Positions 3,065 to 16,977 of a stretch of 64,000 nucleotides of DNA are shown here, in pieces. The DNA comes from an uncultured Eubacteriales bacterium (GTDB lineage: Bacteria; Bacillota; Clostridia; Lachnospirales; Lachnospiraceae), in assembly GCA_900314565.1 (NCBI GenBank), contig OMVU01000001.1, positions 1 to 64,000 of the forward strand, given 5' to 3'. A model generated the notes under the pieces. It had not been told where the DNA came from. It made no database searches and worked only from the letters and a program-made list of their open reading frames with translations. The first letter of the stretch is position 1, and every line of letters starts with the position of its first letter. The translations under genes were made by a program, and so were the position numbers.

Positions 3065-5329
3065 ATGATGGATCATATCTTTAATGAATTATTGGCACTG
3101 ACAAGAGCAGGGCTTATGGATGTTCCTTTAGAGACAGACATAAGCCCTGAAGATTGGTATGCAATCATAAAAATCGCGGAAGAGCAGAATCTGATCAGCA
3201 TTCTTTACCGGGCTGTCAGGATCTCAGGTCTTAAAGTTCCGGACGAAATCCTTACCCGCATAAAGGCGGGATTTTTTCAGGATATACGTCTTGACCGTCT
3301 GCAGAATTCTGAACTGGAACAGCTCTTCCTGGCCTTTGAAGATCAGGGCGTCGACTATTTTCCCATCAAGGGAGCGGTAATGAAAAAATATTATCCCGGC
3401 TCTGTTTACCGATGGATGTCAGACGCTGATATTTTTATCAGGGAGGATCAATATGGCATCATTTCCGGTATAATGAAAAATGCGGGCTATTCTTTTCTTG
3501 ATGAATCCGAGCATGAGTTCCGATGGAAGAAATCGGGATTTCTTATAGAATTTCATAAACAGGCCATGTCTTACTATTATGCAGACGTGGTGGATTATTT
3601 TGGCGATGGTTTTTCTAGAGCACATCGTATCGGGAACTCGCACAGATATCAGTTCGATGCGACCGACGAGCTGATTTTTGTAGCGGTACATTTTGTCAAG
3701 CATTACTTTACCGGGGCAGCTAAGATCCGAAATATTACAGATTTGTATTATCTTTGGGTGCGCGGCGGTGAAAATGAAAAGAAGCTTGAAGAAGTACTCG
3801 AGAGCATGAACCTGCTTTCTTTTTACAGGATTCTGAAAAAAAATGTGATGGCCTGGCTTAGAGGTGTTTCTCTTGACGAGTCGGGGGAATTGATTTTCCG
3901 AACGGTCCTTACCGGTTCCAATGAAGAGAAGAGATTACGAAAATATATTAATTGGGAGGTCCGAAGTAATCGCGGTAAAACAAGAACGACAAGCAGTGCA
4001 AAAGTCAGGACGGTGCTTAAAAGGTTATTCATTCCGGGCAAAAAGATACGTACACGGTTCAGGATATTCAGAGAGCATCCGCTTCTTCTGCCGATTTACT
4101 GGATCTGGCGGGGGTTTTATCTAATTATTTTCCGTAAAGAACGACTGAAAGAATATGTAATTGTGCAGTTCAAAGACAGCGAAGAGTATCTTAAAAAGTA
4201 TGTAGAGTATATGAAGGAAATGAGAACTCTGGGCCTGGAACAGGCTGTTGTGGGAGGAAAGTCCGGCAGCTTCAGAAAGCAGAAGAGACAAAGCTCTTTC
4301 AAACAGAACGTTTCAGGGCAGAATAATGGACGGAGGGAGGGGGTAAGACATGGAAACAATCTTCTTGCTCCGAGAGAACGTGTCCTTGTCAAAGCACTCT
4401 CGGGCGATCTGTCATTTGCAGACTCAGCACATCTTCTCACGGATAATATGGACGCCGACAGGGAGAGTTCCCTTTACCTGCTGTCCCTTGGCATCGTAGG
4501 TTTTCGACAGGGATGGACGTATTTTCCGTCCGGAATCATCCCGCGGATCAGGGGAATCCACCGGTATTATCAGGTCGCTGACAGCGCTGCCGCACCATGG
4601 CTCAGAGAAAAGCTGGCTGTCCTTGAACAGGCGGGCATTCCGTTCGTCCTCACCGGAGGAACAGCTATGAGGGCGCACTATGCGTCCGATACGCCTCGCA
4701 TGATGAACGGGTATGATATTACGGTCAGATCAAAGGATCATGAAGCTGCGTCCTCGCTTCTGCGAAGCGCCGTTCAAACTGCTGATCCGAAAAATCCTTT
4801 TGAGCGTACGATCAGCGGCCGCACCATTCTGCGGCTGCATAAGGGCGTGCCGGATGGGAGGCTGTTCTCCGAAAGAGCTTTCTGGGCGAATGCAGAGTCT
4901 TCTGTTTATCTGGATCATAAAGTGCTGATCCCATCCTCAGAGGATATGCTCCTGCATCTTCTGTGCACACCGTTTGCCCCTTATATATGTGACGAAGATC
5001 ACACTGACCGGGCCCGGCGTCTGGCGGAAAGCTGCATCGTGATCAGATCCGGAATCTCGTACGAGGTCCTCGCGAAAACCGCAGAGAGGGCCGGACTTAC
5101 CGATGTCGTGAGGTTTTATCTGGTCCTCCTTACGGATCTCGTTCCGAATATTATTGACAGGAAGGACTGGGAGCCGTTCTTCCCGGACCGCTTTTCCTAC
5201 AGACTCTTCGTCAGAGAGCTTGACTGGCTTGCACGCATACGTCCCGGGAAAAAGCCGCGCGATCCATTCCTTCGGTTCGTGCGAAGAGTCGTGCGAAAGC
5301 ATATCGTATTCAGGAGAATCAGAAAATGA
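3065..5329 (+). CDS. tandem nucleotidyltransferase-fold protein (NTP_transf_5-like, two domains)
   Basis: A 754-residue protein made of two related halves. Domain 1 (about 20-370) has the nucleotidyltransferase signature: KG at 102-103, then SDADI with two acidic residues at 120 and 122, as in the uncharacterised NTP_transf_5 family. Domain 2 (about 430-754) has TGGTAM near 529 and NGYDI near 551, where the first of the two acids is lost, so it may be inactive. The linker (about 405-435) is basic and polar. An out-of-frame ATG at 4350 follows a strong AGGGAGGGGG sequence, suggesting two ancestral genes became fused. AAGGCGG precedes the start. The gene leads a tightly overlapped set with an HPr-kinase-like gene and a PqqD-like gene. 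In paeninodin-type lasso clusters similar kinase and nucleotidyltransferase genes modify a peptide; here the substrate is unknown. Confidence 0.7.
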   Translation: MMDHIFNELLALTRAGLMDVPLETDISPEDWYAIIKIAEEQNLISILYRAVRISGLKVPDEILTRIKAGFFQDIRLDRLQNSELEQLFLAFEDQGVDYFPIKGAVMKKYYPGSVYRWMSDADIFIREDQYGIISGIMKNAGYSFLDESEHEFRWKKSGFLIEFHKQAMSYYYADVVDYFGDGFSRAHRIGNSHRYQFDATDELIFVAVHFVKHYFTGAAKIRNITDLYYLWVRGGENEKKLEEVLESMNLLSFYRILKKNVMAWLRGVSLDESGELIFRTVLTGSNEEKRLRKYINWEVRSNRGKTRTTSSAKVRTVLKRLFIPGKKIRTRFRIFREHPLLLPIYWIWRGFYLIIFRKERLKEYVIVQFKDSEEYLKKYVEYMKEMRTLGLEQAVVGGKSGSFRKQKRQSSFKQNVSGQNNGRREGVRHGNNLLAPRERVLVKALSGDLSFADSAHLLTDNMDADRESSLYLLSLGIVGFRQGWTYFPSGIIPRIRGIHRYYQVADSAAAPWLREKLAVLEQAGIPFVLTGGTAMRAHYASDTPRMMNGYDITVRSKDHEAASSLLRSAVQTADPKNPFERTISGRTILRLHKGVPDGRLFSERAFWANAESSVYLDHKVLIPSSEDMLLHLLCTPFAPYICDEDHTDRARRLAESCIVIRSGISYEVLAKTAERAGLTDVVRFYLVLLTDLVPNIIDRKDWEPFFPDRFSYRLFVRELDWLARIRPGKKPRDPFLRFVRRVVRKHIVFRRIRK

Positions 5330-6333
5330 GCAAAATGAGAGTGGCCGACTTCTTTCAGGCGGTAGACCGCAGGTTCGATAAGCTCGGACCGGAAGAAGGT
5401 GCTTCTTTTCAGACAATCGTACAGGGAAAAGTCATCGAGCAGCGATTTCTCACGAAGGAAAATGCCGACGGCGTTGCAAAATATCTGATCACGCCGATCT
5501 TAACAGAATACCGGCAGCCTGATGCGGTCTTTTATTACTGGACGGAAGACTGTTCTGTGTACAGGCCATCCGGTACAGAAGGCGCGGAAGGAGTCTGGAT
5601 CAGCAGCGACGATACCGGTTATCTGCGCGTCACAACAGATCGGGAAATGCTTGGGACGGATTTTGTTCGAAGTCGCTATTATCACTGCCGAAAGCCGATC
5701 TCCGGAACGGACTATATGATCCATGGCCATTCTATGGCTTCGATTTTCGGAAAATGGGCTGTCAGAAATGATCTGCTTCTTCTGCACAGTGCCTGCGTGG
5801 GCACAGAAGGAAAAGGAGTAATGATCGCTGCAAGAGCCGGCGGCGGAAAATCCACGCTGGCGATTTCCTGTCTTCTGGGTGATTTTGATTTTGTTTCCGA
5901 CGATTATATACTCGTCACTCAGACAGGTACGCTGAAGGCTATGCCTTTATATAAAGTGATCGGGATCAATCAGGATATGGCAGCGATCTTAAAGCCGGAT
6001 CTGCCTGTGATGAGGATCGAACCCAAACGTGAGAACAAGCTGTATCTGGATGCTTCGAAATTCACATTCAGGGAGGAGCTTCCTGTCAACGCCATTCTTT
6101 ATCCGAACGCATGCGGCGCGGAGACGCCTGTGATCAGGAAGACAGCGAAAGGTCCGGTGCTTGCGAAACTGATCGACTCCTCGGCAAAAAATATTCAGAC
6201 GTTCCGTGATCCGGAGATGTATCGGATCATGGCAGAGCGTCTCATGAACATTCCGGTCTATGAGTTCTTACTGAGCCGTGACCTGTTCCGGAACAGAGCG
6301 GTCCTGAAAGAATTCATCCAATCTCAGATCTAA
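5326..6333 (+). CDS. HPr-kinase-like P-loop ATPase
   Basis: A 335-residue protein sharing an ATGA overlap with the preceding gene. It has a P-loop RAGGGKST (about 170-177) after an LLLHSACV strand, and DFVSDDYI near 188-195, the Walker B-like acidic motif of the HprK/P fold. The first ~130 residues do not look like the N-terminal domain of true HprK, so it is more like the HprK-related kinases beside PqqD and nucleotidyltransferase genes in peptide or glycan clusters. One such homologue phosphorylates lasso-peptide serine. Its substrate here may be the PqqD-like protein or a small molecule; this is inference. Confidence 0.7.
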   Translation: MSKMRVADFFQAVDRRFDKLGPEEGASFQTIVQGKVIEQRFLTKENADGVAKYLITPILTEYRQPDAVFYYWTEDCSVYRPSGTEGAEGVWISSDDTGYLRVTTDREMLGTDFVRSRYYHCRKPISGTDYMIHGHSMASIFGKWAVRNDLLLLHSACVGTEGKGVMIAARAGGGKSTLAISCLLGDFDFVSDDYILVTQTGTLKAMPLYKVIGINQDMAAILKPDLPVMRIEPKRENKLYLDASKFTFREELPVNAILYPNACGAETPVIRKTAKGPVLAKLIDSSAKNIQTFRDPEMYRIMAERLMNIPVYEFLLSRDLFRNRAVLKEFIQSQI

Positions 6334-6371
6334 GGGTCTCTTAATCAGGCAGTAAAGGAGTTTTTATTATT

Positions 6372-6788
6372 ATGTACAAACTGAACGACGAAAAAATGTT
6401 TTTTGACATCGCTGACGGACAGGCTGTAGTTATTAATTTCACTACCGGAATGTATTACGGAACAAGCACACTGGGTTCCGCCATACTTGAAAATCTGGTG
6501 AAGGGTGCCTCCGAAAAAAGCATCGCTGACATTTTAAGATCCGCAGAAGGCTGCCCGGATAATATCGAAGATCAGCTGAAAGATTTTATCAGTGCACTCA
6601 TAGAAAAAGAGATCCTTCTTCCGGAAGCAGGAGAGGGAAGGGCTGCCGAACTGTCCCCGGAGGCTTTTTCTGAAGGCTTTGATTTTACGGTCGATGAATT
6701 CGCGGAAGTCCAGGATCTTCTTATGGCAGATCCTATCCATGAGGTGGATGTGGAGCAGGGATGGCCGATCCTGAGGGATGACGAATAA
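6372..6788 (+). CDS. PqqD-like peptide-binding protein with acidic C-terminal tail
   Basis: A 138-residue protein. Residues 1-80 match the PqqD/RRE pattern: a short beta segment (AVVINFTTGMYYGTS), then helices ending in a FISALIEKEILL-like stretch. Such domains bind leader peptides and present them to modifying enzymes. Residues 105-138 form a separate tail ending in DPIHEVDVEQGWP and acidic residues. From memory, similar DPIH-VD-GWP tails occur in other proteins of this context, which suggests a conserved function for the tail. AAAGGAG lies upstream of ATG 6372, and the stop overlaps the next start by one base. No separate precursor peptide gene was found, so the tail itself could be a substrate or docking segment. 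Confidence 0.68.
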   Translation: MYKLNDEKMFFDIADGQAVVINFTTGMYYGTSTLGSAILENLVKGASEKSIADILRSAEGCPDNIEDQLKDFISALIEKEILLPEAGEGRAAELSPEAFSEGFDFTVDEFAEVQDLLMADPIHEVDVEQGWPILRDDE

Positions 6789-7480
6789 TGCCGCGCGTAT
6801 CTGTCCTGATGCCTGTGTTCAACTGCGAGCCTTATATCGGAAAGGCAATCGAAAGTGTGCTGGATCAGACATTTCAGGATTTCGAACTCATTGTGGTGAA
6901 CGACGGGTCTTCTGATAAAAGCGGCGAAATAGCGTCTTCCTATCCGCAGGTCCGCTGTTTCGACCGCCCGCATAAAGGAATCCCCGAGACTCGTAACTTC
7001 GCCGTCTCCAAAGCGGAAGGTGAACTGATCACCTTTCTGGATGCGGACGATCTCTGGGCCCCGGAGAAGCTTGAACATCAGGTGAAATACCTTGATGAAC
7101 ATCCTGACTGTGATATCATTTTCTGTCGTTACAGAAATTTTACGGATATTCCCGAAGAGGAGATGACGGAGAAGCAGAGGAAGCTCCTCGGAAGGGAAAT
7201 CGATAAATGTCTCACCGCAGCCTGTATGAAGAAATCTCTTTTTGACCGCATCGGAGGATTCAGTCTTACCTGTCCTTACGGGGAAGATACCGAATGGTCG
7301 GCAAGGCTTGTCCTTGCAGGCATAGATATCTCAAAACGTCTTGAGGAGTTCCTGTATCTGCGCCGGATCCACAATGATAATATTACGCTGGCGCACAACG
7401 AGACGGACAATCAGGCTTTCTATGTGAGCCTTGCAGACAGTATCCGCATGAAACTTCGAAAGGGAGGCATAAGAAAATGA
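6788..7480 (+). CDS. GT2 family glycosyltransferase
   Basis: A 230-residue GT-A fold glycosyltransferase. The N-terminus has the classic VSVLMPVFN strand and VVNDGSSD nucleotide-sugar motif. LDADDLW carries the DxD metal-binding motif near residue 84, and an ED pair (GEDTEW, about 162) is the likely catalytic base region. There is no membrane segment, so it probably acts on the cytoplasmic face. It is closely similar to the next gene, including the whole LDADDLWAPEKL and RNFTDIP segments, so the pair arose by tandem duplication. Donor and acceptor are unknown. Confidence 0.85.
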   Translation: MPRVSVLMPVFNCEPYIGKAIESVLDQTFQDFELIVVNDGSSDKSGEIASSYPQVRCFDRPHKGIPETRNFAVSKAEGELITFLDADDLWAPEKLEHQVKYLDEHPDCDIIFCRYRNFTDIPEEEMTEKQRKLLGREIDKCLTAACMKKSLFDRIGGFSLTCPYGEDTEWSARLVLAGIDISKRLEEFLYLRRIHNDNITLAHNETDNQAFYVSLADSIRMKLRKGGIRK

Positions 7481-8175
7481 GCCCTCTGGTCTCCGTGCTG
7501 ATTCCCCTGTATAACAGCCGGAAATTTATCGATGAAGCCGTAAGGAGTGTTCTGGCTCAGACATACCGCAATTTTGAGATCATAGTGGTCGATGACGGGT
7601 CGACGGACGGGGGAGATCAGGCTGCAGCAGGGTATCCGGAGGTCCGCCTGTTCAGGAAGGAGCACAGCGGCATCTCAAAAACACGGAACTTTGCGCTGGC
7701 AAGGGCCGAGGGCGAGCTGATCACCTTTCTGGATGCGGACGATCTCTGGGCACCGGAGAAGCTGTCTCTTCAGGTGAAGTATATGACAGGGCATCCTGAT
7801 TGCGGCATTGTGTTCTGCAGGTTCAGGAACTTCACGGACATACCGGGTGAATTGCGGACAGACCGGCAGAAGGAACTGCTCAGAGCAGAGTTTTCCACCT
7901 ATCTTCCGGGCGCGTGCATAAGAAAAGAGCTCTTTGACAGGTTCGGTGTATTTAGCGAAAGCTGTGCCTTTGGGGAAGATACCGAATGGGAAGCGCGGCT
8001 TCGGCTTGCCAGGATCGATCTTACGCATTGTATCGATAAGGAACTGTATTTCAGGCGGGTCCACGAACAGAACATTACACTCACGCATCCTGATATGGAT
8101 GAATCTGCCAGGTATGCGATCATGGCACAAGCCATTCGGAAAAAATGGAGGAATAAGAAAAATGCCGATCAGTAG
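7477..8175 (+). CDS. GT2 family glycosyltransferase (paralogue of previous gene)
   Basis: A 232-residue GT2 enzyme starting in an ATGA overlap. It has VSVLIPLYN, VVDDGSTD, LDADDLW (DxD motif) and GEDTEWE, all at the same spacing as its upstream neighbour. Differences cluster in the C-terminal acceptor-side half, so the two may add successive sugars to related acceptors. Coupled translation and shared orientation place it in the same operon as the PqqD-like gene. Confidence 0.85.
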   Translation: MSPLVSVLIPLYNSRKFIDEAVRSVLAQTYRNFEIIVVDDGSTDGGDQAAAGYPEVRLFRKEHSGISKTRNFALARAEGELITFLDADDLWAPEKLSLQVKYMTGHPDCGIVFCRFRNFTDIPGELRTDRQKELLRAEFSTYLPGACIRKELFDRFGVFSESCAFGEDTEWEARLRLARIDLTHCIDKELYFRRVHEQNITLTHPDMDESARYAIMAQAIRKKWRNKKNADQ

Positions 8176-8842
8176 GCCCGGTATCTCTGTTATTATCCCG
8201 GCATACAATGCCGAGCGCTATCTGGAGGAGACTGTGCAGTCTGTAAGAGAGCAGCAGTGGGAAGGACCTTTGGAAATCATTGTTGTCAATGACGGGTCAG
8301 CTGACAGCACTGAGGCACTTGCGAAGTCCCTGGGATGCAGAGTGGTCTCCATCCCTCAAAGCGGACCGGCTGCCGCGCGCAATGAAGGAATTAAAAATGC
8401 TTCTAACGATCTGATCTTTTTCCTCGACGCAGATGATGTGCTCGCGGAAGGGAGTTTTGAGGTACTGTACGCTCCTATGGCGCAGGATCCTGCAGTCAGT
8501 GCAGTGTTCGGAAGGGCGAAGGATTTCATATCACCGGACGTTCCTCCTGACGAAGCGAAAAAGATCAGGTATAACGTTGACGGTTACGAAGGAAGGCTGA
8601 CCGGCTGTTCATTTCTCAAAAAAGATGTCCTTGAACAGGTCGGCCCGTTCGATGAATCGCTTAAAAGCGGCGAGACAGTAGACTGGATGGTCAGGCTGCG
8701 GGCATCCTCTGTACGGATCGCCAGGATCCCGGATATTGTACTGCTTCGCCGTATTCATCTGTCCAATATGGGGCGATTGGACCCGCGCGGAGAGATGATG
8801 AACTATGCGGCGATCCTCCGGAAAAGGATGAAGAAGAAATGA
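8162..8842 (+). CDS. GT2 family glycosyltransferase
   Basis: A 226-residue GT2 enzyme with ISVIIPAYN, VVNDGSAD and FLDADD (DxD) motifs. ATG 8162 was chosen because it begins directly at the GT2 fold, overlaps the upstream stop by 14 bases and follows a purine-rich GGAGGAATAAG stretch. A longer open frame upstream lies within the previous gene and is not real. It is more diverged than the two preceding transferases: the late motif reads SGETVDW instead of GEDTEW. Substrate unknown. Confidence 0.82.
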   Translation: MPISRPGISVIIPAYNAERYLEETVQSVREQQWEGPLEIIVVNDGSADSTEALAKSLGCRVVSIPQSGPAAARNEGIKNASNDLIFFLDADDVLAEGSFEVLYAPMAQDPAVSAVFGRAKDFISPDVPPDEAKKIRYNVDGYEGRLTGCSFLKKDVLEQVGPFDESLKSGETVDWMVRLRASSVRIARIPDIVLLRRIHLSNMGRLDPRGEMMNYAAILRKRMKKK

Positions 8843-9693
8843 ACCCTCTGGTCTCTCTGATCACACCGGTCTATAATGCAATGCCATATCTGAAAGACTA
8901 TCTGGATTCTGTGAAGGCCCAGACCTGGCGTCCTCTGGAACTGATCCTTTCTGATGACGGCTCGACGGACGATTCGCTTTCCTTTATAAAAAATCAGATA
9001 AGAGAGCTTGAAGGATCCGGAATCTCAGTAAAAGTGCTTGGTCTGCCCCATGTCTCTCAGGCAGCTGCGGTCAATGCGGCGCTAAAGGAAGTCACCGGCG
9101 AGTTTATCACCTGGTGTGATGCAGATGATGTCATGCTCCCGCAGTGTGTGGAAAAAAAGGCGGAGTTTCTGCTTCTTCATCCTGAGATCGGTATGGTCCG
9201 AAACGACGGAATTATGATCGAAGGCGGGGATATTGCCTCGGCGACAAGGGATACGCTTGAGAGCGACCGGTATACTCAGGATATTTTTCATAAGCTGTTC
9301 ACTCAGTCGACCTACTGCTATGCGGGATGCTATATGATCCGTACGGATCTTTTTGACAATTGCTATCCAGAGAGGGAAATCCCGGTCTCACCCGAAGGTC
9401 AGAACCTTCAGCTGCTGATCCCGCCTGCCAGCCGTTCACTTTGCGGATTCGTTCCGGAGATACTGCACCATTATTACCGGCGTTCGACCGGACATTCCGC
9501 ATCGAAGAAAAGCTATACACGGAGAAGGAGCAGGATCCTCAACTTTTCTCTTTTGCTGGAGGAGCTGCTTCCGTACTGTACCTGCGATAAAGAGTTTTAC
9601 CGCGCAGAGATACGCAGAATTGAAAGAGAACAGCTCGGTCTGCTGATGCGGTCCGCTGCTGACCGCGCGAGAGAGGAAATGAAAAAAAGATGA
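8839..9693 (+). CDS. GT2 family glycosyltransferase
   Basis: A 284-residue GT2 enzyme, the fourth in a row, starting with an ATGA overlap. Motifs: VSLITPVYN, LSDDGSTDD and CDADDVM, the DxD metal site. A basic tail follows after about residue 200. The C-terminal region (PVSPEGQNLQLLIP) differs from the other three, so it probably uses another acceptor. Four soluble transferases without a polymerase or flippase nearby suggest a short oligosaccharide on a carrier rather than a repeating capsule. Confidence 0.83.
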   Translation: MNPLVSLITPVYNAMPYLKDYLDSVKAQTWRPLELILSDDGSTDDSLSFIKNQIRELEGSGISVKVLGLPHVSQAAAVNAALKEVTGEFITWCDADDVMLPQCVEKKAEFLLLHPEIGMVRNDGIMIEGGDIASATRDTLESDRYTQDIFHKLFTQSTYCYAGCYMIRTDLFDNCYPEREIPVSPEGQNLQLLIPPASRSLCGFVPEILHHYYRRSTGHSASKKSYTRRRSRILNFSLLLEELLPYCTCDKEFYRAEIRRIEREQLGLLMRSAADRAREEMKKR

Positions 9694-10751
9694 AAGCCGC
9701 GATCCTCACTTTTCATCTGGCAGATAATTACGGTGCAGTTCTGCAGGCCTATGCGCTCCAGAAGACGCTCCTTAAGCTCGGTGTGGACAATGAAATTCTC
9801 ACGACAGACTTCTCAGACAATGTGAAGGACAGTGGGAAGTCTTATTCCGGAGCGGCGGCAGTTCTGAGGAACCGAATACTAAAGGAGAATGAAAAAAGGC
9901 ACGAACTCTTTGAAGAGTTTCGAAGCACTTATCTCCGCTGTTCTGTCAAATACAGCGACCCGGAGCTTGGCAGTGCGAATAGAATCTATGATTATTTTAT
10001 CACAGGCAGCGATCAGGTCTGGAACCTTCGGATCCCCGGCACATCAGGCAGATATTTCCTGCCGTTTGCGGATGCCAAAAAGCGCGTTTCCTATGCGGCA
10101 AGTTTCGGTTCCGAAGATCTGCCGGAGAAATCCCGTGACTGGTGTGCGGATCAGCTTCGTGATTTTGCACGCCTGTCGGTCCGCGAAAAATCCGGACAGG
10201 AGCTGATTTCCAAGATGACCGGCCGTGAATCTTCTGTAACGCTGGATCCTGTGCTCCTGCCTGGGAGAAGCGAATGGGATGCACTCATTTCGGCTGAAGA
10301 TGACGACCCGTACTATCTGCTCTATATGATATCTTATGACGGGGAGCTCGCTGCGAAGGCAAAACAGGCTGCGTTGCGCGACGGCGTGGAGCTTAAGACT
10401 GTGTGCGGTACATTTGCTCCGCAATGCGGGTTTGATTCGTGGAGCGGGGTGGGCGTGAATGACTGGCTTCGGCTGATCGCAGGCTCTCAGGGTGTTTTTA
10501 CAAACTCATTTCACGGGACTGCCTTCTCTCTCATATATGAACATAAGGTAATGATCTCCGGTCTGAAAGGGGCGCTCTTCGGACGGAACGGGCGCATTAG
10601 GGAACTTATCGAGACAGTGGGATTTGATCATTTTTCCGAAGACACATTTTATTTTTTGCCGCCAGGCGTGTTTGAAAAAAGAATCTTGCCTGCGAAAGAG
10701 AGGTCTCTTCAATATCTCAGAGAGGTGAAGGACTATGCGGAACATCTGTAA
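9690..10751 (+). CDS. polysaccharide pyruvyl transferase family protein
   Basis: A 353-residue protein of the CsaB-like polysaccharide pyruvyl transferase family, which moves pyruvate from phosphoenolpyruvate to sugar residues as a ketal. Recognisable features are the N-terminal LTFHLADNYGAVLQAYAL, FITGSDQVWN near 110 and the late VFTNSFHGTAFSLIY segment. The start lies in an ATGA overlap with the fourth glycosyltransferase, and the stop overlaps the FrhB-like gene. The pairing with an FrhB-like protein recurs in surface-glycan clusters. Confidence 0.85.
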   Translation: MKAAILTFHLADNYGAVLQAYALQKTLLKLGVDNEILTTDFSDNVKDSGKSYSGAAAVLRNRILKENEKRHELFEEFRSTYLRCSVKYSDPELGSANRIYDYFITGSDQVWNLRIPGTSGRYFLPFADAKKRVSYAASFGSEDLPEKSRDWCADQLRDFARLSVREKSGQELISKMTGRESSVTLDPVLLPGRSEWDALISAEDDDPYYLLYMISYDGELAAKAKQAALRDGVELKTVCGTFAPQCGFDSWSGVGVNDWLRLIAGSQGVFTNSFHGTAFSLIYEHKVMISGLKGALFGRNGRIRELIETVGFDHFSEDTFYFLPPGVFEKRILPAKERSLQYLREVKDYAEHL

Positions 10752-11817
10752 AAAGGCCGCTGACTGTTTTGGCTGCGGAGTCTGTGCATCCGTATGTACT
10801 TCCGGAGCGGTCTCTATGGAACCGGACCGGGAGGGCTTTTTATATCCGGTCATAGATGAAGCCCTTTGTACCGATTGCGGCCGATGTACTTTGGTGTGTC
10901 CTTCCGGACACAGACCTGCCGTGATGTCGGAGGTGTCTTATTATGCCTTCAGATGCAAAGATGAGACAATTCTGTCAGACAGCACTTCGGGCGGAGCCTT
11001 CTCACTGATTGCACTGAAAATTCTCGAAAAGGGCGGACTGGTATGCGGTGCTGTTTTTGATGATTCCTTTGAGGTCGTGCACGTTCTGTCTGATGAGATC
11101 TCCTCCATGCGGAAAGCAAAATACGTGCAGAGCAGGACAGCTGACTGTTTCGGAAAGATCAAAGAAGCTCTCACATCCGGCATTCCGGTGCTTTTTTCAG
11201 GAACACCATGCCAGTGTATGGCCGTAAGGTTGTTCTTTCCGGATTCGGAAAGTCTTTATACTGCGTCGCTTGTCTGCCGGGGAGTTATGTCTCCGAAGCT
11301 CTGGGACGAATACAGGTCCTTCCTTGAGAGAAAGGGGACCCTCAATGCTTTTTGTTTCAGAGATAAAAGAAAGCCTGACGACGCACATACCGTTGCGTTC
11401 AGGATAGACGATACAGAGTATGCAGGTGACTTTATAAAGAATCCGCTTTGCCGGATCTACGCCAGAGAGCTGCCTCTGCGGCCAAGCTGCTATTCCTGTC
11501 CTTTTACTTTTGCCGAAAAAGATTTCGACTTCACTCTCGGAGATTTCTGGGGAGTAGAAAATGCTTTCCCGGACCTTGCGGATGGAAAAGGCACTTCACT
11601 TGTGATCACCTGCGGCAATAAGGCTGACGGTCTTTTCACGGAACTCTCGGAAAGCGCAGACATACGAGAGACTGAAAAAGAAAGGATACTGCAGCCCGCA
11701 CTTGTCTCACCGGCCAGGGCTACGATGCTCAGGAAATTTCTGTTCAGGGATCTTTGCACAACAGGGCCGGATGGTCATTGCGATATGAAACTGATCCTTC
11801 GAAAATACGGTTCATAA
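10735..11817 (+). CDS. FrhB-like 4Fe-4S protein (coenzyme F420 hydrogenase beta-subunit family)
   Basis: A 360-residue protein. Two ferredoxin-type clusters sit at the N-terminus: Cys 11, 14, 17, 21 and Cys 45, 48, 51, 55. The FrhB N- and C-terminal domains follow, with STSGGAFS near 85 and FSGTPCQC near 155. Proteins of this family are flavin/Fe-S oxidoreductases. In glycan clusters beside pyruvyl transferases their electron donor and substrate are unknown. It overlaps the pyruvyl transferase gene by 17 bases, so the two should be made together. The 104 bases after it hold no gene. Confidence 0.82.
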   Translation: MRNICKKAADCFGCGVCASVCTSGAVSMEPDREGFLYPVIDEALCTDCGRCTLVCPSGHRPAVMSEVSYYAFRCKDETILSDSTSGGAFSLIALKILEKGGLVCGAVFDDSFEVVHVLSDEISSMRKAKYVQSRTADCFGKIKEALTSGIPVLFSGTPCQCMAVRLFFPDSESLYTASLVCRGVMSPKLWDEYRSFLERKGTLNAFCFRDKRKPDDAHTVAFRIDDTEYAGDFIKNPLCRIYARELPLRPSCYSCPFTFAEKDFDFTLGDFWGVENAFPDLADGKGTSLVITCGNKADGLFTELSESADIRETEKERILQPALVSPARATMLRKFLFRDLCTTGPDGHCDMKLILRKYGS

Positions 11818-11921
11818 AAGAGGCATCTGTATGATGCAGGGCAGAACAGTCGGCTCATGAGCAGACAGCGAAGCAGACAGCAAATTTCCGCTTCACATGG
11901 ATCCATTCGGAGAAAATATCA

Positions 11922-13631
11922 TTGAATAAACAAAAGATCAACATATCTACAATCAAATGGCTCGTCCGGATTGCAGCCACTGCGAAAAGAAGCCTTTTCT
12001 TTTTGTTTTTGATAAAGATCCTGCAGGGAATCGTGGGAATTGTATTTGCCTTTTTCCTGCGAACGGTCATCGACGCCGCTGTGAGCGGCAATGCACATGA
12101 TTTTTATCTTTATCTTGCACTGGGGAGCGGAATCATTGTTGCCGAAGTCGTTCTGTACTGGCTTGCGACCTACCACAAAGAGAAGCCTGCTGCGGTCCTG
12201 GCCAGAAATATCAGACATGCGACCTTTGAGCAGCTTCTCAAAAGGTCATATCCGGATATCTCGAAAGTGCATACCGGTGAATGGATGACAAGGATCAACT
12301 CGGATGGCGTTATTATTGCCAATGCCATCACGTCTTTGATTCCGGGCACAGCCGGTCTCATTGTTCAGATGGTATGTGCATTGGCAGCCATGTTCCTGCT
12401 TCTTCCGCGCATGGCATGGATACTGATCCCACTCGGGGCAGGAATGATCATGATTTCCCTGTTCATGCGCATAAGGCTGAAGAACTATCACAAAAATGTT
12501 CAGAGAAATGAGGGAATATCGTATTCATATCTGCAGGAATCCTTAGGGAGCATGTCGATCATACGCACATACGTGAGAGAAGAGCAGACAGGGCTGGAAG
12601 CTTATCAAAAGCTTGACGGAGTAGTAAAGGCGAAGCTGCGCAGAGCGCGTTTTATCTCCTGCTGCTCATCAGCCGTATATGCCCTGATCAGGGTCAGCTA
12701 TTTCCTCGGCGTCGCTGTCTGCAGTTTCAGGCTTTTAAAGAACGTGATGACATACGGTATGATGGCTGCTGTTCTGCAGCTGATCCGGCAGGCTGACCTG
12801 CCGCTCGCCGAAGTCACATCTGCCGTACCGAAGTTCTTTAACATGATCGCCAGTGCAGAGCGCCTTATAGAAATTGAAAAGCTGGATCTTGATTATACTG
12901 ATGAGCCTGTCGCACCGGATGAAGCAAGGCGCTTTTATGAAGAAGAGCTCTGCGAGATCGGCTTTAACAAGGTGCATTTTTCCTATAATCATGATGCCGC
13001 CTCAAGTGAAGTGCTCTCCGAAATGTCCATGGCTATTCATAAAGGTGATTATGTGGCTTTTACAGGAGAATCAGGATGTGGAAAAAGTACGACGATGAAT
13101 CTGCTTATGGGGCTCTACCGTCCTGACAGCGGAGATATTTTCTTAAGGACTGAGAACGGCTCTGAGCAGACTCTGGATGCCAGGTGGAGAACTCTGTACG
13201 CCTACGTTCCGCAGGAAAATCTTCTTATGAGCGGAAAAATCAGAGAAGTCGTCACTTTCGCAGACTCCGAAGCCGGGAACCGGGATGAGAAGATCTGGCA
13301 GGCTCTTCGGATCGCCTGTGCAGAGGAATTCGTGAAAGCTCTTCCCGACGGGCTTGATACACTGCTCGGTGAACACGGTGCCGGATTATCCGAAGGCCAG
13401 ATGCAGCGTATAGCAATAGCGCGCGCCATTTTCAGCCGCAGGCCGATCCTTTTGCTGGATGAATCAACAAGCGCACTCGACGAGCTGACAGAGAAAAAGC
13501 TTCTTGATAATCTGAAAAGTATGACAGACCGGACCGTAGTTATTATTACACACAGACCGGCAGCACTTTCTATCTGTACGAGACGTATTCACTTTGCGAA
13601 CGAATCACGGGGCGGAGACATTATAGAGTGA
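11922..13631 (+). CDS. ABC exporter, fused membrane and ATPase domains
   Basis: A 569-residue type I ABC half-transporter. Residues 1-310 contain about six membrane segments. The ATPase domain has Walker A GESGCGKST (about 382-390), Q-loop YVPQEN, signature LSEGQMQR (about 489), Walker B ILLLDE (about 511) and H-loop THR. It should act as a homodimer exporting a lipid-linked sugar, peptide or toxin. The start is TTG 11922, nine bases after GGAG at 11909-11912. A peptidase C39 domain is absent, so it does not itself cleave a leader. Placed after the glycosyltransferases, it is the natural exporter of the cluster's product. Confidence 0.85.
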   Translation: MNKQKINISTIKWLVRIAATAKRSLFFLFLIKILQGIVGIVFAFFLRTVIDAAVSGNAHDFYLYLALGSGIIVAEVVLYWLATYHKEKPAAVLARNIRHATFEQLLKRSYPDISKVHTGEWMTRINSDGVIIANAITSLIPGTAGLIVQMVCALAAMFLLLPRMAWILIPLGAGMIMISLFMRIRLKNYHKNVQRNEGISYSYLQESLGSMSIIRTYVREEQTGLEAYQKLDGVVKAKLRRARFISCCSSAVYALIRVSYFLGVAVCSFRLLKNVMTYGMMAAVLQLIRQADLPLAEVTSAVPKFFNMIASAERLIEIEKLDLDYTDEPVAPDEARRFYEEELCEIGFNKVHFSYNHDAASSEVLSEMSMAIHKGDYVAFTGESGCGKSTTMNLLMGLYRPDSGDIFLRTENGSEQTLDARWRTLYAYVPQENLLMSGKIREVVTFADSEAGNRDEKIWQALRIACAEEFVKALPDGLDTLLGEHGAGLSEGQMQRIAIARAIFSRRPILLLDESTSALDELTEKKLLDNLKSMTDRTVVIITHRPAALSICTRRIHFANESRGGDIIE

Positions 13632-13739
13632 GGGAAAGAGGGAGCCGGCTGGCACCTGTGAATGTGAAACATGAGTGGCTGCGGAATCGGCATCCGAACG
13701 GATTCAATCGGACAATAACTGTAATTAGCAGAGGAGAAG

Positions 13740-14900
13740 ATGGACTCATATATCCATATCGGAAAATCATATCTGGAACATCTGCCCGCGGATGATACAC
13801 AGGAGGCTCAGACAAGACTGTGCTCACGCATACGCATCGGAAACCATGAGACAGTTTTGTGGTTCGGTGTAGGTGCCGAACAGGAAACGGCTTTGAGCAT
13901 CGGCAGAGCTGACGCGTTCGTCATGGCCCTTCTGCCGGCAGCCATGCGCCAAAGTCTGGATATCGTCTGTGATGACCCCATGTCACTGCGGCTTCATCAT
14001 CAGCTGATGCATGATCTGGTACCTGCAATCACTTACAATGGTGATATGTTCCATATGATCCGGATCAATGCAGAGGTAAGTTCTGAAAAAATTTCATCGA
14101 CAGGCGTCACCGCGACCGGTTTTTCCGGAGGAGTGGATTCACTCTATTCAGTCTGCATGCACGGGAGTGACAGTCTGTTTCCTGTCACACATCTTGCGGT
14201 CTTTAATTCAGGTGTTTTTGAAGGGAAAAAATATCGCCTGGAATTCCTGAAAGCCTGCAAAAACTGCGGCAGGTTTGCCGATGAAAATGGTCTTGAGACC
14301 ATATACGTCGATTCGAACCTTTATGAGCTGCTCGATGAGAATTATATTCAGGTAGCCACATACCGGTTACTGGCCTGCGCACTGTCCGTGCAGGGGATGG
14401 TGTCCGTGTATCTGCTTTCATCCGCCTTTTATATAACAGATTTTGCTCTCACTCAGGATCACGCCGCCTGTTATGATCCGCTGACAGTTAGCAGTGCCTG
14501 TACGGAAACGCTGCAGTTCTACCTGTCCGGCGTCCATGTAAACAGGATTGAGAAATTAAAAGCGCTGACGCATTGGCCGCCGGCTCACAGATGGCTGCAT
14601 CCCTGTGCCTACGGAGAGAGCGGCGCGGTCAACTGCGGAAGATGTAAAAAATGCATGTGGGATCTGGCGGCACTTTATGCTTTCGGAGAGCTCGACCAGT
14701 TTCGAGCTGTCTTTAATATTGACGATTATCTGAAAAATTTGCCGCAGCGGCTGGGCTTTGTTCTTTCGTATGATCAGGATCCGTTCTGCAGAGATGTAGT
14801 GAGGCTTCTCAGAGATAAGGGAACGGAAATACCACCGGCAGCTTATAAATGTGCCGAGATGTTCCGAAAAGCCAGACATTTGCAGGAAAGCAAGTCGTAA
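13740..14900 (+). CDS. PP-loop ATP pyrophosphatase family protein
   Basis: A 386-residue protein with the PP-loop SGGVDS at about 129-134, the ATP pyrophosphatase motif of QueC, tRNA sulfurtransferases and related adenylating enzymes. Near the C-terminus (about 298-305) is NCGRCKKC, a cysteine knuckle that could hold zinc or an Fe-S cluster; this layout resembles QueC-like proteins. Family chemistry is adenylation of a carbonyl followed by attack of N or S. The N-terminal ~115 residues are not recognisable. GAGGAG precedes ATG 13740. A paralogue follows 26 bases later. The 108 bases upstream hold no gene. Confidence 0.7.
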   Translation: MDSYIHIGKSYLEHLPADDTQEAQTRLCSRIRIGNHETVLWFGVGAEQETALSIGRADAFVMALLPAAMRQSLDIVCDDPMSLRLHHQLMHDLVPAITYNGDMFHMIRINAEVSSEKISSTGVTATGFSGGVDSLYSVCMHGSDSLFPVTHLAVFNSGVFEGKKYRLEFLKACKNCGRFADENGLETIYVDSNLYELLDENYIQVATYRLLACALSVQGMVSVYLLSSAFYITDFALTQDHAACYDPLTVSSACTETLQFYLSGVHVNRIEKLKALTHWPPAHRWLHPCAYGESGAVNCGRCKKCMWDLAALYAFGELDQFRAVFNIDDYLKNLPQRLGFVLSYDQDPFCRDVVRLLRDKGTEIPPAAYKCAEMFRKARHLQESKS

Positions 14901-14926
14901 ACAGCGTGAAACAGGAGAGTGATCGT

Positions 14927-16150
14927 ATGACCGCAGCTGACAACAGAAAGAAGGTATTGCAGATAAAGGCCCCCCGCACAGTGAATACTGAAAACGGAGT
15001 CAGTCTCTGTGCGGATATAGTCATCGGCGGCCGAACCGAGACAGTCTGGTTCGAGGTAAATTGTAAATACGCTCCGTTCCTGACCGATGACAGACTGGAT
15101 GCGTTTGTCGCTGCCTGCCTGTACAGAGCTATGATGATGGGAGCAGATATTGAGTGTGAAGCTCCCGTGTCCCGGCGTCTCTTGTACCAGCTGAATAATT
15201 ATCTGCTTCCGGTGCTGGCGGATAATATTCCGGAATTTCACCGTATTCATGTCGTCGCGGACCCAGCGGATCTTGTTTTTTCAGAACGGAACGCTGTCGC
15301 AACGGGATGGACCGGCGGTGCAGACAGTATGTATACGTTCATGCAGATGTCAGGGGACGGGGCTTCCGACATAAAACTGACGCACCTGCTGATCGCCAAC
15401 AACGGTGCGTTGGAGAGTGATAACAACGAAGAGCTTCTGCGCAGCATGGTGGCCAATACAGAGAACGGCATAGCCCGTGAGACAGGTCTCAGTGTGATCG
15501 GCGTCAATTCCAATCTGGACAGGGTCTTTTCTGATGAAACATATCTTGCAGTTGCGGGTTTCCGTCTTCCTGCGGCAGTCCTTGCACTTCAAAAAATGTT
15601 CTCTGTTTTCTTTAACTCTGCGGGATACGAGTTCTCCCGTTTTTCCTTTGTGCCAAATAACAGTGCATATTACGAAATGTTCATCATGCCGAATCTTTCC
15701 ACCGAGAATACCGTATTTTATTCTTCCGGCGGTGCGGCATCCCGTATCCGGAAGCTCAAGGAGCTTTCCGAATATCCTCCGGCGCACAGATATCTTCATC
15801 CTTGTATTTATACATCAGAGACGAACTGTGGAATGTGCGGCAAATGTGTTCGAACAGAAGCTGCATTATATGCTCTCGGAACACTTGACCGGTTCGGTGA
15901 GGTGTTCGACCTGAATGCATTTGAAAAAAATAAAGACCGCATCCTTGCAGAGATCATTTCAAAAAGGAAGAGCCAGCATTACGGGGAAGCTTATACATTG
16001 CTAAGGAAGGAAGGGCTGCTTACAGGGCGGGCTGAACAGATAGCCGCATCCATGAATGCCGCCAAAACGGTCGTAAGCAGGAACAGAGAGAGGATTGAAG
16101 AGTTGCTTTCTTCTGTTCGTGAATCTGATAGTTTGACGAGGAAATTATGA
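14927..16150 (+). CDS. PP-loop ATP pyrophosphatase family protein (paralogue)
   Basis: A 407-residue paralogue of the preceding gene with the same domain spacing. The PP-loop is TGGADS at about 128-133, where the usual first serine is threonine, and NCGMCGKC lies near residue 300. Both proteins share YPPAHRYLHPC or a close variant ahead of the cysteine knuckle. The start at 14927 follows AGGAG (14913-14917); a longer frame to 14849 lies inside the upstream gene. Two divergent copies side by side suggest a heterodimer or two consecutive activation steps. The gene overlaps the membrane ferredoxin by ATGA, which ties its function to electron or sulfur supply. Confidence 0.7.
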   Translation: MTAADNRKKVLQIKAPRTVNTENGVSLCADIVIGGRTETVWFEVNCKYAPFLTDDRLDAFVAACLYRAMMMGADIECEAPVSRRLLYQLNNYLLPVLADNIPEFHRIHVVADPADLVFSERNAVATGWTGGADSMYTFMQMSGDGASDIKLTHLLIANNGALESDNNEELLRSMVANTENGIARETGLSVIGVNSNLDRVFSDETYLAVAGFRLPAAVLALQKMFSVFFNSAGYEFSRFSFVPNNSAYYEMFIMPNLSTENTVFYSSGGAASRIRKLKELSEYPPAHRYLHPCIYTSETNCGMCGKCVRTEAALYALGTLDRFGEVFDLNAFEKNKDRILAEIISKRKSQHYGEAYTLLRKEGLLTGRAEQIAASMNAAKTVVSRNRERIEELLSSVRESDSLTRKL

Positions 16151-16977
16151 AACAGAGCTGCAATAAATATATAAGTCCGCTTATCATACTTATCGTTTTC
16201 GAGTCTGTCGCCGTGACCCTGTGGCTGACGAAAAAGAATCTTTTTTATCTGTTCAATTTCAGCTATATCGGACTGTCTGTATCTCTTGGGATTCTTCTGT
16301 TTATAAAGAAATACAAACATGCCAGACGTGTTGTACAGCTGCTTGTGGGTTTATACATGCTTGTCTATCTCGGATTGATCTGCAATGAAAACATGCAGAT
16401 CGAGGGATTCTGGTACTATCTCTTTACCGGAGTATTTGAGGCGGCGACGATTCATTATGCGGTCGCAAAAATCTTCGGACCTTTGATCTTCGGGCGCGGA
16501 TGGTGCGGATATGCGTGCTGGACGGCAATGGTGCTTGACTTTCTTCCGTATAAGGTCCCGCTGCAGCCGAGGAAGAAGATCGGATGGATCAGATACATCA
16601 CATTTGCCGCGTCGCTTGTCTTTGTATCGGCGCTGTTCCTTGCAAAAGTCGGGAATATAGAGCGGATCATGTTCTGGGCGTTCATTGTCGGGAACATTGC
16701 TTATTACGGAATCGGAATAGCGCTTGCATTTCTCTTCAAAGATAACCGTGCATTCTGCAAGTATGTGTGCCCGATCACAGTGTTTTTAAAACCCATGAGC
16801 TATTTTTCGCTGATGCGTGTGAAATGTAAAAAGGATCTGTGTGTCAACTGCGGAAAGTGTAAACGCGTATGTCCCATGGATGTGGATGTGACCGACAACT
16901 CAAGGAAAAGGAAAAACGGCACAGAGTGTATCCTCTGCATGGAGTGTGTGAAGAATTGTCCAAAAAACGCACTCTGA
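16147..16977 (+). CDS. membrane-bound 4Fe-4S ferredoxin, NapH-like
   Basis: A 276-residue polytopic membrane protein with about five hydrophobic segments. GRGWCGYAC (about 118) and CKYVCP (about 206) are the cysteine pairs typical of the NapH/NosR/CcoG group. Two classical ferredoxin motifs close the protein: CVNCGKCKRVCP and CILCMECVKNCP, with the second at 261-272. It should pass electrons between the membrane and a soluble partner. No nitrate reductase or nos gene is present, so the partner is probably the overlapping PP-loop gene pair or the FrhB-like protein. Confidence 0.78.
   Translation: MKQSCNKYISPLIILIVFESVAVTLWLTKKNLFYLFNFSYIGLSVSLGILLFIKKYKHARRVVQLLVGLYMLVYLGLICNENMQIEGFWYYLFTGVFEAATIHYAVAKIFGPLIFGRGWCGYACWTAMVLDFLPYKVPLQPRKKIGWIRYITFAASLVFVSALFLAKVGNIERIMFWAFIVGNIAYYGIGIALAFLFKDNRAFCKYVCPITVFLKPMSYFSLMRVKCKKDLCVNCGKCKRVCPMDVDVTDNSRKRKNGTECILCMECVKNCPKNAL

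Follow-up and report, generated by a model that had tools for sequence, protein, structure and literature searches.

The closest described relatives of the system reported here are lasso peptide gene clusters that include a kinase and a nucleotidyltransferase. In the available portions of the reports on these clusters, HprK-type kinases bearing a His-Lys-Asp-Asp motif, such as PadeK, phosphorylate the C-terminal serine of the peptide, and PsmN adds hexoses to it (PMC9266682); phosphorylation by the kinase BsfK requires the recognition protein BsfB1 (PMC10368454). The known role of such a recognition element (RRE) in the biosynthesis of ribosomally synthesized and post-translationally modified peptides (RiPPs) is to fetch a separate precursor. 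Here we describe a gene cluster from a 64,000-nucleotide stretch of DNA of an uncultured Eubacteriales bacterium in the Lachnospiraceae (contig OMVU01000001.1, positions 1 to 64,000; hereafter the window), in which a PqqD-like protein bears two further segments on the RRE itself, one leader-like and the other core-like and invariant. This tailed PqqD system is widespread among bacteria and was not found described in the literature searched.

By profile and by predicted fold, the PqqD-like protein of the window is an RRE of the lasso B1 type. The best relative of its family profile in the PDB is TbiB1 (1.8e-17), and TfuB1 was also matched (3.1e-9). A Foldseek search with the predicted fold returned 5v1u (E-value 3.2e-4, template-modeling score TMt 0.82). 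The Pfam model for PqqD (PF05402) gives the window protein 21.2 bits (3.7e-4), which is below its cut-off of 23.4. The AlphaFold2 model has a mean predicted local distance difference test score (pLDDT) of 81 and includes a predicted strand at residues 107 to 110.

Beyond the RRE and a variable linker, members of the family share a tail with the approximate consensus FxxPxLxKYxDMQDLLLLDPIHEVDxxGWP, whose core motif is present in at most one copy per locus. This comparison covers 82 loci (the window, L031 and L033 to L112, with L008 and L032 dropped as duplicates of L033 and L104), some of which are near-duplicates, as with the identical tails of L051 and L052. Residues D120, P121, H123, G130 and W131 are invariant in all 82 loci. 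One of the two patterns used in locus finding sits in the tail and is carried by 71 of the 82 proteins, and the conservation of DPIHEVD is therefore biased. The fair evidence comes from the residues outside the pattern and from the 11 proteins that lack it. All 11 contain DP[IV]H[DE]V...GW, these rows too having been confirmed through similarity to the window protein, and the entropy of the core-like segment outside the search pattern is 1.28 bits, compared with a mean of 2.22 bits for the RRE. The conserved side chains of the tail that could accept a group are those of His, Asp, Glu and Trp.

The first half of the tail resembles the leaders of lasso-type precursors as a family-wide sequence pattern. 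For comparison we used eight control loci (L124 to L131), which are kinase loci found without the tail in a single phylum, the genomes of the window and of L104 being left out. The kinase profile behind them matched 10 of the 398 genomes of the phylum. A leader profile comprising the 18 residues that precede DPIH in 58 tails (window and L033 to L055 left out) placed four ORFs (open reading frames) of L124 and L125, which on our reading are likely precursors, at ranks 1 to 4 among the 1200 small ORFs of the control loci; their scores were reached by 1, 2, 2 and 39 of 24,000 shuffled ORFs. With a second profile of 15 residues and 20,000 shuffles per tested sequence, the score of the TbiA-beta leader (the Thr(-5)Glu form crystallized with TbiB1) was reached by no shuffle. 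A looser pattern, [FYWLIV]xxPx[LVIMC]xx[YFH]xx[MVIL], occurs in 50 of the 82 tails.

Within the genus, the PqqD-like protein was found in 2 of 42 genomes, the source genome included, and a single-sequence search of the 392 genomes of the order returned the source genome only. The second genome of the genus (L033) has the first ten genes of the window cluster in identical order. Its last positions differ: an epimerase and an IspD-type cytidylyltransferase (L033 17475-18521; L008 74-790), followed by the contig end, replace the PP-loop and NapH-like genes of the window. When 398 genomes of the phylum were searched with a profile, one relative appeared in another family (L012/L032, on the same contig as L104), and a plasmid search yielded one (L031) on a plasmid of the cyanobacterium Crinalium epipsammum; kinase, nucleotidyltransferase and GT2 neighbors accompany both L104 and L031. 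With a cyanobacterial member of the family as query, seven plasmid records matched: the Crinalium protein at full length, and six others whose similarity was confined to the RRE part and some of which are annotated as lasso chaperones. Nine pattern matches for PqqD in viral contigs included no confirmed relative, and a search of phages gave nothing useful.

A scan of the genome_contigs collection matched 272 stretches, of which 148 were confirmed as relatives and the best 80 were kept. The titles of these records, many of them metagenome bins, indicate about a dozen phyla, with labels that include Firmicutes, Bacteroidetes, Cyanobacteria, Chloroflexi, Nitrospirae, Proteobacteria, Actinobacteria, Planctomycetes, Lentisphaerae, Puniceicoccaceae (Verrucomicrobia), Acidobacteria, Aminicenantes, Bipolaricaulota and Ignavibacteria. 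Records that bear only lower names were assigned to what we take to be their phyla.

More than 5 kb of sequence is available on both sides of PqqD in 54 of the 82 loci. Gene pruning lost PqqD in 13 maps (69 left), and neighbors were therefore counted among unpruned ORFs. An HprK-type kinase is present in 68 of the 82 loci, an NTP_transf_5-like nucleotidyltransferase in 65, a GT2 enzyme in 75 and an ABC exporter in 31. The profiles for these four families were built from the same loci, and distance from PqqD served as the density control. Per 10 kb, kinase density is 1.08 at distances of up to 4 kb from PqqD but 0.04 at more than 6 kb; the corresponding values are 0.94 and 0.25 for the nucleotidyltransferase and 2.66 and 0.39 for GT2. 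The ABC exporter, at 0.19 and 0.29, is thus not concentrated beside PqqD. In the 69 maps the kinase directly follows PqqD in 25 cases and precedes it in 12. An alignment of 25 kinase rows has H154 and D192 invariant and K175 and D193 conserved in at least 90%, and by our reading of the residue correspondence the window kinase appears to have the His-Lys-Asp-Asp catalytic set. Six loci (L065, L087, L090, L092, L101 and L103) have a kinase-GT2 fusion of about 600 residues near the tailed PqqD; in L087 there is also a radical SAM/SPASM gene in the vicinity.

The window cluster itself comprises 13 tightly packed genes, all on the forward strand between positions 3065 and 16977 (Table 1). Ten of the 12 gene junctions are no longer than 38 bp and nine are overlaps (eight if the second PP-loop protein starts at 14927), and two larger gaps measure 104 and 108 bp. 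An earlier note on this stretch had counted fourteen genes, one too many, and had rightly described them as mostly overlapping; the gene families it named agree with our assignments (Table 1). It had proposed that the genes form a pathway, and co-occurrence elsewhere is indeed observed, in the ten-gene core of L033 and, for the kinase, nucleotidyltransferase and GT2 genes, across the loci, so that the failure to co-occur that the note had named as a refutation was not observed. The pyruvyltransferase, PP-loop and Fe-S proteins that it had placed in the same pathway turned out to be accessories: the pyruvyltransferase (9 of 82 loci), FrhB (9) and PP-loop (7) genes occur only in the window and L033 to L040, a single Firmicutes subclade, and NapH is found only in the window in the pruned gene set. 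PP-loop and NapH proteins were therefore rejected as defining parts of the system. The radical SAM enzyme of cofactor pathways of the PQQ or mycofactocin type was not found in the cluster: none of the 13 window proteins has a Radical_SAM match in Pfam, and among the NCBIfam matches listed for them there are only ferredoxin-type matches, below cut-off, to activase models. Just 5′ of the cluster lies a palindromic element of about 100 bp (2656-2754) with perfect inverted ends of 16 bp; because it has 43 matches in its own genome, we regard it as a dispersed repeat resembling a miniature inverted-repeat transposable element.

Table 1. Genes of the window cluster and segments of the PqqD-like protein.
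Feature	Position	Strand	Basis
Double nucleotidyltransferase, NTP_transf_5 in both halves	3065..5329	+	Pfam 1.9e-44, two stretches; second half alone 1.4e-8
HprK-type kinase, conserved H154, K175, D192, D193	5326..6333	+	PF07475 (Hpr_kinase_C) 2e-4, below Pfam cut-off
PqqD-like RRE protein with C-terminal tail, 138 aa	6372..6788	+	Pfam, profile, Foldseek
RRE domain, residues 1-82	6372..6617	+	Family profile match to TbiB1; Foldseek 5v1u
Variable linker, residues 83-101	6618..6674	+	Mean column entropy 3.29 bits
Leader-like segment, residues 102-117, divergent in window (GFDFTVDEFAEVQDLL)	6675..6722	+	Mean entropy 1.73 bits
Core-like segment, residues 118-132 (MADPIHEVDVEQGWP)	6723..6767	+	Mean entropy 0.70 bits
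GT2 glycosyltransferase a	6788..7480	+	PF00535 1.6e-35
GT2 glycosyltransferase b	7477..8175	+	PF00535 2e-33
GT2 glycosyltransferase c	8162..8842 (chosen start; ORF opens 7934)	+	PF00535 1.1e-33
GT2 glycosyltransferase d	8839..9693	+	PF00535 5e-27
Polysaccharide pyruvyl transferase family protein (accessory)	9690..10751	+	PS_pyruv_trans 1.3e-26
4Fe-4S / FrhB_FdhB protein (accessory)	10735..11817	+	FrhB_FdhB_C 7.8e-15 plus Fer4
ABC exporter	11922..13631	+	ABC_membrane and ABC_tran; peptidase domain not among its Pfam matches
PP-loop ATPase-like protein 1	13740..14900	+	SGGVDS-type motif; family match none
PP-loop ATPase-like protein 2	14927..16150 (chosen start; ORF opens 14849)	+	38% identity to protein 1
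NapH-like membrane ferredoxin	16147..16977	+	NCBIfam 1.6e-15, below cut-off

The two PP-loop-like proteins (13740-16150) belong to a protein family without a Pfam or NCBIfam entry that is also represented in other genomes of the same bacterial family (L003 and L004). Neither protein has an NCBIfam match, and Pfam gives one chance-level match, to protein 1. Their name rests on the SGGVDS motif, which we take to be that of PP-loop enzymes; an alignment of the relatives shows conservation of both a motif of the SGGVDS type and C-terminal cysteines. A PP-loop model had no significant match in the PDB, the best being an RNase H (E-value 0.08), with the PP-loop enzyme MnmA at 0.16.

The reading that we favor, with a confidence somewhat short of even, is that the PqqD-like protein unites an RRE, its own leader and a core-like segment in one chain, and that phosphorylation, sugar transfer and export use this chain as acceptor or scaffold. 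On the single polypeptide, the RRE would be followed by a flexible linker, the leader-like segment and then the invariant core-like segment DPIHEVDxxGWP. Whether in cis or in trans, the leader would dock on the RRE, and the core would thereby be offered to three partners: HprK-type kinase, NTP_transf_5 protein and GT2 enzymes. These enzymes could add phosphate and sugars to the tail, or to something docked there, and the ABC exporter would take the product out, an order of steps that we infer. In the Firmicutes subclade, the pyruvyltransferase, FrhB-type and PP-loop enzymes may further decorate the product. By analogy with the lasso kinases, we would expect the fused tail to act either as acceptor or as dock, and a putative carrier-bound glycosylated product is plausible.

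Several observations weigh against this reading. An invariant core is atypical among RiPP products. Ser and Thr are absent between DPIH and the C terminus in 31 of the 82 proteins, including that of the window, to which phosphorylation of a C-terminal Ser as in lasso peptides is therefore inapplicable. The tail segments have no match among NCBIfam models or PDB sequences, the core is modeled with low confidence (block means of 63, 52 and 50), and 14 of the 82 loci, some at contig ends, have no kinase in the available stretch. Some other likely leaders obtained low scores. A fifth likely precursor (L125:10244) took only rank 13, and those of L126 and L131 fell outside the 14 best ORFs listed. 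Among the 20,000 shuffles, 28 reached the score of the TbiA-alpha leader, 435 that of a Bacteroidales tail and 1584 that of the window's leader-like segment, which lacks the Pro. This last result is not significant, and the leader reading in the window thus rests on homology rather than on its own motif.

Alternatively, the tail could be a docking motif and not a substrate, such that the RRE protein would scaffold the kinase, nucleotidyltransferase and GT2 enzymes while they act on another molecule (a sugar, a lipid or an unlinked peptide). The position of a short, invariant motif after a variable linker, the lack of a conserved Ser or Thr in the tail, and the variation in GT2 number and sugar enzymes among loci are all consistent with this possibility. 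However, docking by itself leaves the leader likeness of the segment preceding the motif unexplained, and no alternative acceptor gene was seen to recur in the maps, in which no systematic search for one was made. We consider docking possible but doubtful, and we rank the acceptor role slightly above it.

The cluster could also be an ordinary locus for exopolysaccharide or surface glycan, with PqqD, HprK and nucleotidyltransferase genes that are incidental or regulatory. Such a locus could account for the GT2, pyruvyltransferase, FrhB, epimerase, MBOAT and IspD-type neighbors, and for the occurrence of the PP-loop relatives in L003 and L004, one of which adjoins a GT2-type gene. This explanation is improbable given how regularly the kinase, nucleotidyltransferase and GT2 genes accompany the tailed PqqD in many phyla, and the flippase, polymerase and priming-transferase families of a Wzx/Wzy polysaccharide locus were not matched by Pfam in any of the 13 window proteins.

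The kinship with lasso clusters is evident in the trio of RRE, HprK-type kinase and nucleotidyltransferase, which the earlier note correctly saw as lasso-like. To look for the remaining lasso components, we used cyclase and B2 peptidase profiles whose seeds were all Pfam-confirmed (four cyclase seeds being Asn_synthase). Neither gave a match in the window's first 20 kb, and PF13471 has no match in the source genome. In the available stretches of the 82 loci with a tail, there was no match to the cyclase profile and a single one to the B2 profile, which lies at the L058 edge and was confirmed by Pfam. No separate precursor gene is evident in the window, where there is little intergenic room; unrelated small precursors would be compatible with the system. 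The statement in the earlier note that McjB- and McjC-type genes are missing stands, as does its statement on a separate precursor as far as none is evident, with the qualification that the peptide may instead be fused as the PqqD tail, a conserved feature that the note did not mention. In the control loci, PqqD is present in six of eight (85 to 103 residues) and the tail motif in none, and Pfam finds PF13471 in seven and an Asn_synthase-type cyclase in four. Pfam also finds radical SAM proteins in L131 and, of the B12-binding kind, in L124 and L125. In L124 (7327-13631) and L125 (5896-10420), the B12-binding protein accompanies an RRE, a PF13471 peptidase-type protein, an HprK and a nucleotidyltransferase, along with small precursor-like ORFs (three and two, respectively) and no Asn_synthase-type match in either; these loci are apparently of another RiPP type. 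Although the RRE, kinase and nucleotidyltransferase profiles of the tailed loci match the lasso-type controls, which carry Asn_synthase and PF13471, the cyclase and B2 counts in the tailed loci led us to reject a lasso identity, and a degenerate or split lasso cluster, with precursor, B2 and cyclase elsewhere or lost, is highly improbable because the tail is absent from the controls and the arrangement recurs across phyla, as would not be expected from decay.

A broader form of the acceptor reading is that the tailed proteins represent a hitherto unrecognized, cross-phylum class of ribosomal product, wherein RRE, leader and invariant core in one polypeptide would form a universal peptide primer for a species-specific, phospho-linked glycan that is assembled and then exported, a protein-primed counterpart of glycan assembly on lipid carriers. 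We regard this generalization as rather unlikely. If fused leader and core segments do function as we propose, they would connect lasso-type tailoring with glycan assembly, and would supply a concrete peptide for asking what these HprK-type kinases act on.

The system can be set against four groups of described proteins. In the open-licence literature searched, preprints aside, the string DPIHEVD was not found, nor, judging by titles and the starts of abstracts, was an architecture combining a tailed RRE with a kinase and glycosyltransferases. According to the available part of a 2025 RRE survey (PMC12710340), 21% of PF05402 proteins exceed the size of a discrete RRE without another Pfam domain. 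The tail would explain some of these long PqqD-only proteins. RRE-glycosyltransferase fusions are mentioned in the available parts of this survey and of PMC7470986, neither of which describes there an RRE fused to its leader or core; the GT2 enzymes here are instead separate genes or are fused to the kinase.

The HPr-rel-A and SynChlorMet families form cassettes. Their NCBIfam models (TIGR04352/04353 and TIGR04248/04249) cover kinase and PqqD-type families in common with our loci. The window kinase scores 36 bits (cut-off 200), no match to TIGR04352 or TIGR04353 reaches cut-off, and among 39 members TIGR04353 matches one and TIGR04248 matches 18, with E-values up to 0.01.

TbiB1 with TbiA (PDB 5v1u, 5v1v) provides the closest solved RRE by profile and fold, and its beta leader fits the tail profile; it differs in that the leader is a separate chain and in the poorer fit of the alpha leader. 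Finally, the lasso clusters with a kinase and nucleotidyltransferase (paeninodin with PadeK, pseudomycoidin with PsmK and PsmN, and bsf), as far as the available portions of PMC9266682 and PMC10368454 describe them, have in common with the window cluster a B1-type RRE, an HprK-type kinase with His-Lys-Asp-Asp, a nucleotidyltransferase and an ABC exporter, and their leader of the YxxPxL type may have its counterpart in the leader-like segment of the tailed family. In contrast to those clusters, the one described here has no evident separate precursor, no cyclase and no B2 protein but several GT2 enzymes, and its leader-like and core-like segments are fused to the RRE, with a core that is invariant.

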